Part shown: piece after piece, positions 11,913 to 16,421 of the stretch
Layout: every line of letters starts with the position of its first letter
Position numbering within the stretch: the first letter of the stretch is position 1
DNA from: a virus
Strand: one strand, 5' to 3'
IMG/VR virus record: IMGVR_UViG_3300031963_000984
Coordinates: 1-22,722 of that record
Length of the DNA: 22,722 bases
Notes under the pieces: model-generated
The model's database searches: none
Told to the model about the DNA's origin: nothing
What the model saw: the letters and a program-made list of their open reading frames with translations, nothing else
Position numbers and translations under genes: made by a program

Positions 11913-11960
11913 ATAGTAAACTGTTTATAGGCCATGTCAACAGGTTTTTTAACTTTTTTT
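11913..11960 (-). promoter_or_regulatory. strong leftward early promoter with UP-like A-tracts
   Basis: On the minus strand a perfect -35 TTGACA (11935-11940) is 16 bases from TACTAT (11913-11918, four of six to consensus). Immediately upstream lie two A-tracts (complements of T-runs at 11945-11950 and 11954-11960), placed like an UP element. It would drive the operon from 11865 down to 8627, with a ~40-base leader to the first start. Confidence 0.7.
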
Positions 11961-11970
11961 ACAAAAATAG

Positions 11971-12000
11971 GGTAATCCCCTACAAAATGTGGGGTAATTG
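11971..12000. promoter_or_regulatory. candidate operator between the divergent promoters
   Basis: CCCC-T-ACA (11977-11984) and TGTGGGG (11988-11994) form an inverted repeat around AAA, and GGTAAT occurs on each side of it (11971-11976 and 11993-11998). It lies just outside the -35 boxes of both the leftward promoter and the rightward RNA promoter, a natural site for a regulator such as the HTH protein encoded at 11009-11221. The assignment is inference from symmetry and position. Confidence 0.4.
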
Positions 12001-12026
12001 GCAAGAACAGGTTATTGCCCTATAAT
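11998..12026 (+). promoter_or_regulatory. near-consensus rightward sigma70 promoter
   Basis: TTGGCA (11998-12003, five of six) is 17 bases from a perfect TATAAT (12021-12026). The predicted start is near 12033. No convincing protein start follows at a normal distance. What follows is a strongly folded sequence ending in a U-tract, so this is best read as the promoter of a small RNA and possibly of the rightward operon by readthrough. Confidence 0.8.
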
Positions 12027-12032
12027 CGGGGT

Positions 12033-12205
12033 GTCAGCAGGGTGGCACCTGTTGGAAGAATGAAGATCATCAGGAACCCCCGTTTGTTTAGGTGGGTATG
12101 TGTAGCGCGGGAAATGTGGCTCTCCAGCCTGATGATCCGGTCATTTTTCCTCCGCTGCCCATGCCAAGGGCCATACCCACCTAAGTATTCGGGGGTTTTT
12201 CTTTT
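12033..12205 (+). ncRNA. candidate structured small RNA with intrinsic terminator
   Basis: The basal stem AACCCCCG (12075-12082) pairs perfectly with CGGGGGTT (12190-12197). After a short imperfect joint the helix continues as TTAGGTGGGTATG (12088-12100), pairing perfectly with CATACCCACCTAA (12172-12184). Inside are an arm at about 12104-12156 (AGCG with CGCT, GAAATG with CATTTT, and an inner GGCT-CTCC-AGCC hairpin) and a small GCCC/GGGC hairpin (12157-12171), giving a three-way junction. The closing helix runs into TTTTTCTTTT, a terminator U-tract. A near-consensus promoter lies just upstream. A 57-codon frame from ATG 12060 crosses it, but its ribosome site is too close to the start and its composition looks non-coding. 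The family is not recognised; length and rod shape loosely recall 6S RNA, without further support. Confidence 0.6.
12065..12137 (+). other. long-range complementarity that would make a pseudoknot or switch
   Basis: GATCATCAGG (12065-12074) is perfectly complementary to CCTGATGATC (12128-12137). The first copy is immediately 5' of the basal stem and the second lies in the inner arm, so this pairing crosses the two perfect stems. It therefore forms either a pseudoknot or an alternative fold that breaks the inner arm. Confidence 0.5.
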
Positions 12206-12208
12206 GGT

Positions 12209-12387
12209 GCTGGCTGCGCGAAACGCCAGCTAAGTAAAAGGCGGGGATGGGATAGAGGCCGGGGAATAAGTAGCCCCGGAGCCGGGGTCGACACCCGCTA
12301 TATCCGTCTAGTAGTGGGCATGGCTACCTAGAGTACCGTTGTTACGGGATACATCTCCATGTAAGTCTGGCAAAAACTTGTTTTTGC
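12209..12387 (+). other. hairpin-rich non-coding segment (RNA domain or replication origin candidate)
   Basis: Consecutive inverted repeats fill this stretch. GCTGGC/GCCAGC is at 12209-12230. CCGGGG/CCCCGG (12259-12279) and GGGT-CGAC-ACCC (12285-12296) follow, the former also enclosed by a GCGGG/CCCGC pairing at 12241-12298 that competes with the latter. CTAGTAG pairs with CTA(C)CTAG at 12308-12331. GTACCGT pairs with ACGG(GA)TAC at 12333-12352. GCAAAAAC/GTTTTTGC is at 12370-12387. No open frame with a ribosome site is visible. It could be the 3' part of a longer RNA reached by readthrough, a mRNA leader, or a structured origin between the divergent replication operons. Confidence 0.45.
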
Positions 12388-12440
12388 TAGTTGGTCGGTC
12401 TATGGTTTTAAGGACAAAGGACAGCTTGCAAACAGTTTGC
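12370..12440. promoter_or_regulatory. pair of GCAAA...TTTGC palindromes before the rightward operon
   Basis: GCAAAAAC-GTTTTTGC with a 2-base centre (12370-12387) and GCAAAC-A-GTTTGC (12428-12440) share the same outer half-sites. Between them lie weak promoter-like boxes TTGCTA (12384-12389) and TTTAAG (12407-12412) with a 17-base spacing. The arrangement fits two operator sites flanking a regulated promoter for the genes from 12461. Only the palindromes are certain. Confidence 0.4.
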
Positions 12441-12460
12441 AGTTCGGATACTGTAATTCC

Positions 12461-12930: not shown

Positions 12931-13201
12931 GTTTCTAGTCCTACTTTTGGTTGCAACCCCGGCTTTTGCTCAGGTTTTTGTCATGCCCAACAAAGGCGGG
13001 GGAGAAATCACCCTGACCTCAAGACCCTGCGTGGTTAACAGCCAGACGGTAGAGGGACTAAGGGAAGGATACACATGGAGCCCATCGACCCCGTACCAGA
13101 AAGCCTGCTGGACGATTGTTGATGGTATGGTTCACGTTTTGTATCTTGATTCAAACACCCGTAGAGTGTATGCAATAGAGGACTTCCAGAGGAAACAATG
13201 A
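12923..13201 (+). CDS. secreted 92-residue hypothetical protein
   Basis: The ATG at 12923 follows a strong GGGAGAGGG ribosome site; an earlier in-frame ATG 25 codons upstream would bury the signal peptide. MIRFLVLLLVATPAFA is a clear Sec signal with AxA cleavage after residue 16. The mature 76 residues begin QVFVMPNKGGGEITLT and contain two Cys (36 and 62), a likely disulfide, and VHVLYLDSNTRRVYAIEDF. It should act in the periplasm or outside. It is followed with a 4-base overlap by a glycosyltransferase gene, so a role in altering the cell surface is possible but unproven. Confidence 0.65.
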   Translation: MIRFLVLLLVATPAFAQVFVMPNKGGGEITLTSRPCVVNSQTVEGLREGYTWSPSTPYQKACWTIVDGMVHVLYLDSNTRRVYAIEDFQRKQ

Positions 13202-13932
13202 CCAACGTGGCCGTGGTGACCTCAACAATCGGAAGAAAGACCCTGAAAGACTGTATCGAGAGCGTAAGAGCCCAGACCCGCAAGGCTACGCACTACGTCT
13301 TTATCCACGGTAAAAGATTTATTAACGCCAAAAATGAGGTCATCGAGATAGCTACCGATCCCGAGCCAGATGTGGTTTTTGTGCAGCTACCCTTTAATAA
13401 CGGGGGTAACGGGTTTGGGATGGCTCCCGTCTATGCGGCGGCTCCATACATAGTGAGTGAGGAAGTCATCTGCTATCTGGATGATGACAACCTATACGAC
13501 CCGCAACACATAGAAAAGAACGTAGGGTTTCTAGAGGAAGAGGGGCTAGATTGGTGTTATTCCCTACGCAGAATCATTGACCAAAAAGGTTACTATGTGT
13601 GCGATGATTTAACCGAGAGCCTTGGGATTTACAACAACTGCCACGCGACAAGACTTGTGGATAACTCATGTTTCATAGTGAAAACTAAGGTCGCTCAGAA
13701 ACATGGCCACGGCTGGATGCAACCGATTATTTCTGATCGCGGGTTTTTATTGGAGCTGATGACAAACGGACTGAAGTGCGGGGGGCTGGGGGAGACAACC
13801 GTCAGCTATCGAATAAGTGAAGATGGGTCAAACCCAGACGGTGCGAAATACTTTTTACATTGGAACGAAGTGCAGAAAAATAAATATCAGGGGTCATACC
13901 CTTGGATGAAGAGGACGGTGTTTCAGACATGA
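13198..13932 (+). CDS. family 2-like (GT-A) glycosyltransferase
   Basis: A 244-residue protein coupled to the previous gene. The N-terminus NVAVVTSTIGRKTLKDCIES is the nucleotide-sugar-binding start of GT2 enzymes, and CYLDDDNLYDP (92-102) supplies the metal-binding DxD-type motif, followed by SLRRII and a possible catalytic Asp at IISDRGFLLE (D180). There are no membrane segments, so it is cytosolic. It would transfer a sugar from an NDP-sugar; the acceptor may be phage DNA, a phage protein or host surface glycan. Its place amid early genes instead of tail genes favours a role during takeover. The stop overlaps the next ATG (ATGA). Confidence 0.8.
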   Translation: MTNVAVVTSTIGRKTLKDCIESVRAQTRKATHYVFIHGKRFINAKNEVIEIATDPEPDVVFVQLPFNNGGNGFGMAPVYAAAPYIVSEEVICYLDDDNLYDPQHIEKNVGFLEEEGLDWCYSLRRIIDQKGYYVCDDLTESLGIYNNCHATRLVDNSCFIVKTKVAQKHGHGWMQPIISDRGFLLELMTNGLKCGGLGETTVSYRISEDGSNPDGAKYFLHWNEVQKNKYQGSYPWMKRTVFQT

Positions 13933-15956: not shown

Positions 15957-16138
15957 ATTGTGAGACCTGTAAGTTTTTTCAGGCGTCAGGAAAGTTTGGT
16001 ATGTGCCAGCGTTACCCCGAATACGTTATGAAGCAGGCTGGTATGTGGTGCGGGGAGTATCAAAATAAGCAGGAAGCAGTCGTGGACATAGAACCTAAAA
16101 AAAGAGGGAGACCACCGAGTGATAAAGCCGTTGCGTGA
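15953..16138 (+). CDS. four-Cys small protein with AT-hook-like tail
   Basis: A 61-residue protein from a GTG coupled to the previous stop. CETCKFF (3-9), MCQRYPEY (17-24) and WCGEY (32-36) place four Cys as CxxC, C, C, a layout common in small phage and prophage metal-binding proteins. The tail KKRGRPPSDK (49-58) is an AT-hook-like minor-groove DNA-binding motif. The combination suggests a DNA-associated zinc (or iron-sulfur) protein. It overlaps the GroES-like gene by 20 bases. Confidence 0.65.
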   Translation: MNCETCKFFQASGKFGMCQRYPEYVMKQAGMWCGEYQNKQEAVVDIEPKKRGRPPSDKAVA

Positions 16139-16421
16139 CCGGATCGTTGTAAAACCTTTTGAGCGCCAAAAGAGTGCGGTGCTAGAGGTAATCATGCGGG
16201 AAAACCCGAACATGGGCGAGGTGGTTGCGGTAGGGCCGGGAGAGTACGACAAGAAAGGTCGGCTGGTTCCTAACCCTGCGAAGGTCGGTGACAAGATCCG
16301 CTACGGGACGACAGGCGAATATCTTACGTTTCAGCAGTATGAGGAAAACGGCGAGAATTACCTGATAATGAGCTGGAAGGACGTTTGCTGGGTGGACGAA
16401 AATGGCAAAAACTACCAATAA
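16119..16421 (+). CDS. GroES-like co-chaperonin (Cpn10)
   Basis: A 100-residue protein with GTG start after GAGGGAGA. MIKPLRDRIVVKPFERQKSA matches the GroES N-terminus, and MGEVVAVGPGEYDKKGRLVP, AKVGDKIRYG and NYLIMSWKDVCWV follow in the normal order of the beta-barrel. The mobile loop region (about 17-32) differs: instead of GGIVL it reads VLEVIMRENP, so contact with GroEL is likely modified. No GroEL gene is seen in the window, so it would act with the host chaperonin, as T4 gp31 does for its capsid protein. It overlaps both neighbours by 20 bases. Confidence 0.85.
   Translation: MIKPLRDRIVVKPFERQKSAVLEVIMRENPNMGEVVAVGPGEYDKKGRLVPNPAKVGDKIRYGTTGEYLTFQQYEENGENYLIMSWKDVCWVDENGKNYQ

Follow-up and report, generated by a model that had tools for sequence, protein, structure and literature searches.

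6S RNA is a long duplex whose large central bubble imitates an open promoter, and it binds the sigma-70 holoenzyme. phi29 pRNA and GOLLD/ROOL are structured RNAs associated with phages, and their complementary segments vary together. Type III antitoxin RNAs of the ToxIN kind are short, pseudoknotted and accompanied by a terminator; the pseudoknotted unit is repeated, and a toxin gene follows. Phage attenuators and leader terminators consist of a promoter, a structured leader and an intrinsic terminator ahead of an operon. GOLLD/ROOL RNAs are oligomeric (PMC12286853). The put RNA of phage HK022 is about 70 nt long and folds into two stem-loops; putL and putR are located at or near the +1 of an early promoter and head an operon, have no terminator of their own, and no pseudoknot or loop-loop contact is described for them (PMC9378689).

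The window, that is, the whole stretch of 22,722 nucleotides analysed here, corresponds to positions 1-22,722 of the IMG/VR virus record IMGVR_UViG_3300031963_000984, from a freshwater bacteriophage. Its plus strand carries a P22-like terminase/portal region and its minus strand recombination genes (YqaJ-type exonuclease, SSB). In its divergent promoter region lies a structured RNA, RNA-1, which is followed by a second element, RNA-2, and then, on the plus strand, by the genes of a rightward (replication and later) operon (Table 1). This operon includes a family 2 glycosyltransferase gene (13198-13932, plus strand, Pfam E 4e-7), which is not a frequent neighbour among RNA-1 relatives. The phage also encodes a GroES-like co-chaperonin (16119-16421, plus strand, Pfam Cpn10, E 2e-13).

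Table 1. Predicted features of the RNA-1/RNA-2 locus (window coordinates)
Feature	Position	Strand	Evidence
Sigma-70-type promoter	11998..12026	+	TTGGCA 11998-12003, 17 nt, TATAAT 12021-12026
RNA-1 transcript	12033..12203	+	Starts at invariant G, ends in U-tract; covariance model, fold z
P0 5' strand GUCAGC, overlapping the P1 5' strand	12033..12038	+	Complementarity to and covariation with 12209-12214
P1 hairpin, 8 bp (12034-12041/12048-12055), hexaloop GUGGCA	12034..12055	+	Covariation
L1 UGGC, predicted kissing partner of L5 GCCA (12163-12166)	12043..12046	+	Subtype covariation
P2 5' strand, H-type pseudoknot, hypervariable	12065..12074	+	Perfect 10 bp; covariation
P3 5' arm (terminator stem)	12075..12100	+	96% of cells paired (window subtype)
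P4 hairpin, 16 bp (12104-12107/12153-12156, 12109-12114/12146-12151, 12116-12121/12139-12144)	12104..12156	+	100% paired, 2 pairs with double changes (window subtype)
P2 3' strand, inside the P4 hairpin loop	12128..12137	+	Perfect 10 bp with 12065-12074
P5 hairpin (GCCC/GGGC), loop AUGCCAA carrying L5 GCCA	12157..12171	+	Subtype folds, alignment
P3 3' arm	12172..12197	+	Complementarity to 12075-12100
U-tract of intrinsic terminator	12196..12205	+	Sequence; T run after P3 in aligned homologues
P0 3' strand GCUGGC, also RNA-2 start	12209..12214	+	Complementarity, covariation
RNA-2 (window type), about 190 nt, 3' limit approximate	12209..12397	+	Alignment covariation

RNA-1 occupies the position of the put RNAs, at the +1 of a phage promoter and at the head of an operon, and the locus as a whole has the parts of a phage attenuator. 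It differs from attenuators in general in that the terminator stem encloses the whole pseudoknotted fold, and in that the alternative partner of the 5' end comes after the terminator, not before it. RNA-1 shares its shortness, pseudoknot and terminator with the ToxIN-type RNAs; however, no tandem repeats are seen at RNA-1 and no constant toxin gene lies downstream. A type III toxin-antitoxin RNA was rejected on the lack of repeats, on the presence of RNA-2 as the next element and on the variable downstream genes. Unlike phi29 pRNA and GOLLD/ROOL, RNA-1 has no Rfam match and its P2 strands can pair within one molecule. The Rfam 6S covariance model did not match RNA-1, and the conserved predicted fold, a pseudoknot with a three-element P3/P4/P5 layout, is devoid of a large central 6S-type bubble. 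The sequence-only reading had proposed a 6S-like polymerase decoy or an RNA antagonist of a defence system; no support was found for the former, and nothing in favour of the latter.

Over 100 distinct homologues of RNA-1 were found in IMG/VR phages and fall into four subtypes, A, B, C and L, the last being that of the window. They were collected first with the exonuclease as an anchor and then by sequence patterns, which yielded about 60 distinct homologues across subtypes A, C, L and B, and a total of 52 distinct sequences for subtype B. The homologues stem from metagenomic contigs, of which some are fragments or may be chimeric. The covariance model R1, in which the window itself is included, matched the window at 12033-12203 with 131 bits. 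A model built without subtype B found many members of this subtype (E 5e-5 to 0.02, the E-values being rough).

No known family had been recognised from the letters, and the Rfam search agreed: with Rfam 15 at curated gathering thresholds the whole window gave no match, and permissive scans of the RNA-1 regions of the four subtypes gave only weak matches, mostly on the opposite strand and far below threshold. RNA-1 is a previously undescribed family, as judged by Rfam and limited full-text searches, and it is a real RNA family in that its relatives preserve the fold although the letters of the knot differ. BLASTN of the RNA-1 region against the phage collection gave no matches; subtype C sequences gave one 26-nt match and nothing further among phages and plasmids; and viral contigs contained no match to a stem-only or a three-part pattern. 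Scanning genome contigs with a pattern gave 29 places, approximately the number estimated to arise by chance, of which one alone was real. This copy (L249, 1826-2081, minus strand) lies on the same strand as an exonuclease gene, within a phage-like part of a contig of 582 kb that is assigned to an Akkermansiaceae MAG, and is either a prophage or a misassembly. A model scan of low sensitivity found no RNA-1 in 369 genomes. RNA-1 is absent from three Manatee Spring phage genomes whose terminases are related (56-72% identity), and it therefore belongs to part of the phage group. One such genome (L256, MW202520) carries an Rfam int-alpA RNA (RF02996) at 2423-2489 on the minus strand.

The near-consensus promoter TTGGCA-17-TATAAT had been noticed in the sequence-only reading, and the comparison of homologues confirms it. 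It matches the consensus at 11 of 12 positions and is the best within 9-15 kb of the window; a single site of such quality is by itself not beyond chance. Its significance comes from the fixed spacing of the -10 hexamer: in 77 of 83 distinct homologue upstream regions the first conserved G is preceded by a TANNNT sequence at a distance of exactly 6 nt, and no other spacing occurs in more than 7. This distance from the invariant GUC makes the first conserved nucleotide the +1; position 12033 is the likely 5' end of the window RNA-1, which gives an RNA of about 171 nt. The -35 side varies among homologues (TTGGCA, TTGACT, TTGCAA, or an extended -10 TGGTAATAT). Operator-like repeats, AAAAATAGGGTAAT / AAATGTGGGGTAAT, are present between the divergent promoters at 11960-12000 of the window, and operator-like TAGGCG..GCCTA palindromes lie upstream of RNA-1 in a subtype A locus (L034). 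Such repeats suggest a repressor that would act at the RNA-1 promoter.

The predicted fold of 12033-12203 has an energy of -78.1 kcal/mol, compared with -54.9 +/- 4.4 for shuffled sequences (z -5.2, none of 200 as good), in agreement with the claim that the pairing is beyond chance; together with the fixed -10 spacing and the U-tract after P3, it bears out the reading of a structured RNA that has a promoter and a terminator of its own. The two stems proposed from the letters, 12075-12082/12190-12197 (8 bp) and 12088-12100/12172-12184 (13 bp), are both perfect, and they are parts of a single pair of 26-nt arms, P3, which is 85% complementary. P1, the P2 pseudoknot, the L1-L5 contact and the pairing of 12033-12038 with 12209-12214 had been overlooked. 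When each subtype alignment was folded separately, the same layout was obtained in four of four: P1, then P3 enclosing P4 and P5, with P2 pairing the stretch before P3 to the P4 loop. The family is 130-180 nt long, and the window sequence has all its defining elements (+1 GUCRG, P1, L1-L5, the P2 pseudoknot, and P3 with P4 and P5).

Compensatory base changes among relatives, named in the sequence-only reading as the test of this pairing, were found in P1, P2, P3 and P4 across three separate subtype alignments, and in each alignment the covariation score exceeded those of all 500 shuffles and of all slid controls; these counts ignore phylogenetic relatedness, as does the Fisher test given below. 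In the window subtype, P1 has double changes in 3 of 8 pairs and is 100% paired (the same result was obtained in subtype A), and P2 has double compensatory changes in 6 of 10 pairs with all cells paired; P2 double changes affect 4 of 7 pairs in subtype A and 4 of 10 in subtype B. G-U pairs are kept in the RNA-1 stems. L1/L5 is UGGC/GCCA in 54 of 54 non-B sequences and UGAC/GUCA in 51 of 53 subtype B sequences; this covariation is one double change of one predicted contact, counted over many sequences.

The rate of change in P2 is 3-5 times that in the remainder of RNA-1, and the P2 pairing is kept. Per-site differences in the window subtype are 0.31 in P2 vs 0.09 in the other stems and 0.07 in loops; in subtype A they are 0.42 vs 0.09. 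Between two homologues, L150 and L160, the compared alignment has four nucleotide differences, which are compensatory and fall in P2, and none elsewhere; and about 40 different P2 5' strands occur among 53 subtype B sequences. Candidate causes are diversifying selection, cassette exchange and a weak constraint on the letters. No convincing second copies of P2 sequences, as targets, were found within the same collected loci. A hammerhead-like CUGAUGA belongs to a P2 strand, is not conserved and was discarded. A resemblance of GGGUGGCACC to a T-box was also dismissed: the stem letters vary freely (AAG/CUU, GGU/ACC, GGA/UCC).

At least 96 of 103 loci have the RNA-2 start motif within 32 nt of the U-tract, on the strand of RNA-1, compared with a background of 4%. 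RNA-2 comes in several types, which are combined with different RNA-1 subtypes. Double changes affect 11 of 55 predicted pairs in the window type (alignment A1) and 25 of 41 in type A2. Because the minimum free energy of the window RNA-2 is not beyond chance (z -0.67), the case for this element rests on covariation. A third type is the Rfam family Betaproteobacteria-1 (RF02932), found directly downstream of RNA-1 on the same strand in three loci (L170, L225 and L137); this family corresponds to one RNA-2 type and not to RNA-1, which does not match it. The window RNA-2 scored below Rfam thresholds, including that of RF02932 (gathering score 49.4 bits). In two subtype B loci (L321 and L305), RNA-1 runs directly into the middle of an RNA-2 whose 3' part is lost; the junction is a deletion, a recombination event or an assembly chimera.

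The first nucleotides of RNA-1 have a second complementary partner at the start of RNA-2, forming a putative helix P0. The partner of GUCAGC is GCUGAC in other loci, and the subtype B pair is GUCGGA/UCCGAC. At least 5.5 of 6 pairs can form in 84% of 80 distinct loci, compared with 4% with letter-shuffled flanks. Starts with GUCAG are accompanied by CUGRC and those with GUCGG by CCGRC (Fisher 2e-14, not corrected for related sequences), and the association persists within separate RNA-2 types. The search patterns partly fixed the GUCAGC and GUCGG starts, so that only the exonuclease-anchored loci and two loci found by the model and not by patterns, L117 and L086, are free of this bias. These two therefore provide the best evidence for P0: it is GUCAUC/GAUGAC in L117, where the P1 partner has changed too (G-U to U-G), and CGGAAUU/AAUUCCG in L086. 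P0 and P1 use the same 5' nucleotides and are therefore mutually exclusive; the P0 duplex is predicted at -8.1 kcal/mol, vs -2.6 for outer P1 in subtypes A, C and L, or -5.0 in B. Minimum free energy folding of 12033-12440 does not choose P0, and the complementarity could also act in DNA. The gap from the U-tract to the P0 3' strand is only about 3-12 nt, which leaves no room for a promoter between RNA-1 and RNA-2. RNA-1 had been called free-standing; this is correct for its promoter and terminator, but not for its surroundings, since RNA-2 follows within about 30 nt and its first nucleotides are predicted to pair with the RNA-1 5' end.

Similarly, the proposed location at a divergent early switch applies to the window and not to the family. 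The nearest upstream gene is co-directional with RNA-1 in 36 subtype B and 13 subtype C loci; because of these 49 loci, the RNA-1/RNA-2 module is not tied to a divergent promoter region, and its upstream context differs among loci.

We tentatively favour the reading in which RNA-1 acts mainly in cis, as a terminator/leader switch that heads the rightward operon and would also release a stable RNA of about 171 nt. By default, P1 and the L1-L5 contact would clasp the fold, P3 would terminate transcription and RNA-1 would be released. Upon read-through, the segment after the U-tract would draw the 5' strand out of P1 into P0, the stronger of the two helices; this would open the clasp and seal the 5' end, and the extended transcript would then be committed to RNA-2 and the operon. 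As the P0 3' strand is beyond the U-tract, termination cannot be averted by P0 alone, and read-through must be assumed to have another cause. A weak promoter-like sequence, TTGCAA-17-TACTGT, follows RNA-2 in the window (12426-12454); several relatives also have a promoter-like sequence after RNA-2, with TTGCAA-17-TATTCT in the corresponding position ahead of the next gene, so that downstream genes need not depend on the leader.

The main rival is a small RNA acting primarily in trans, in which the 171-nt species would be the effector (a protein-binding decoy, an RNP or an oligomer) and RNA-2 merely adjacent; we consider this possible, though somewhat less probable. The compact, self-contained fold with its pseudoknot and loop-loop contact is explained equally well by action in trans and in cis, and a trans-acting RNA would also account for a promoter at fixed distance and a terminator in all subtypes, for the occurrence of the module in different gene contexts, and for a hypervariable paired P2, which suits an identity element, e.g. 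in self vs non-self assembly. However, the invariable RNA-2 neighbour and the covariation of P0 are then left unexplained, no partner gene is constant (the commonest neighbour gene cluster is present at 73 of about 110 loci), and P2 sequences do not recur as a target elsewhere in the collected loci. The switch in cis is preferred because it explains both the constant RNA-2 neighbour and P0.

An antitermination RNA of the put kind, which as a nascent RNA binds RNA polymerase and renders it termination-resistant in its own operon, would fit an RNA-1 that begins directly at the +1 of a phage promoter and heads an operon in the manner of HK022 putL (PMC9378689). We nevertheless hold it to be unlikely: put RNAs do not end in a terminator (PMC9378689), whereas RNA-1 has a pseudoknot and its own terminator and no sequence match to any Rfam family, and in size and shape (130-180 nt with a pseudoknot vs about 70 nt and two stem-loops) RNA-1 differs from a put RNA. 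That the region is a replication origin, a primer-RNA locus or a DNA element made of inverted repeats, and not a transcription regulator, appears very unlikely. Replication and recombination genes adjoin it, P0 is also an inverted repeat in DNA, and the cumulative GC skew of the window turns near 10.5-11 kb; but this turn follows gene orientation, and the promoter spacing, the kept G-U pairs, the pseudoknot and the U-tract are RNA features. Finally, it is extremely improbable that the pairing is due to chance or to a small protein. The 57-codon frame from 12060 is open in all 8 window-subtype sequences, yet the codon-like substitution that had been named as an argument against an RNA was not seen: differences are spread evenly over codon positions (164/136/133), 245 codon differences are non-synonymous vs 107 synonymous, and the other subtypes have no corresponding frame of similar extent. 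The strong covariation and the fold z of -5.2 also oppose this reading.

New well-supported structured RNA families seldom come from phage genomes. RNA-1 is common in freshwater phages of its type and has an unusually clear predicted anatomy (fixed +1, pseudoknot, loop-loop contact, terminator). Two properties set it apart: one helix evolves several times faster than the sequence around it yet stays paired, and the 5' end has two mutually exclusive partners that co-vary with it, of which one lies past the terminator. The orphan Rfam family Betaproteobacteria-1 gains a context as one of several RNA-2 types found after RNA-1. More speculatively, and we regard this generalization as doubtful, RNA-1 may represent an RNA switch of a so far undescribed class in phages: a pseudoknotted RNA, ending in a terminator, whose 5' end would be swapped between P1 and P0, always coupled to an RNA-2, and whose hypervariable pseudoknot would serve as a phage-specific identity element.
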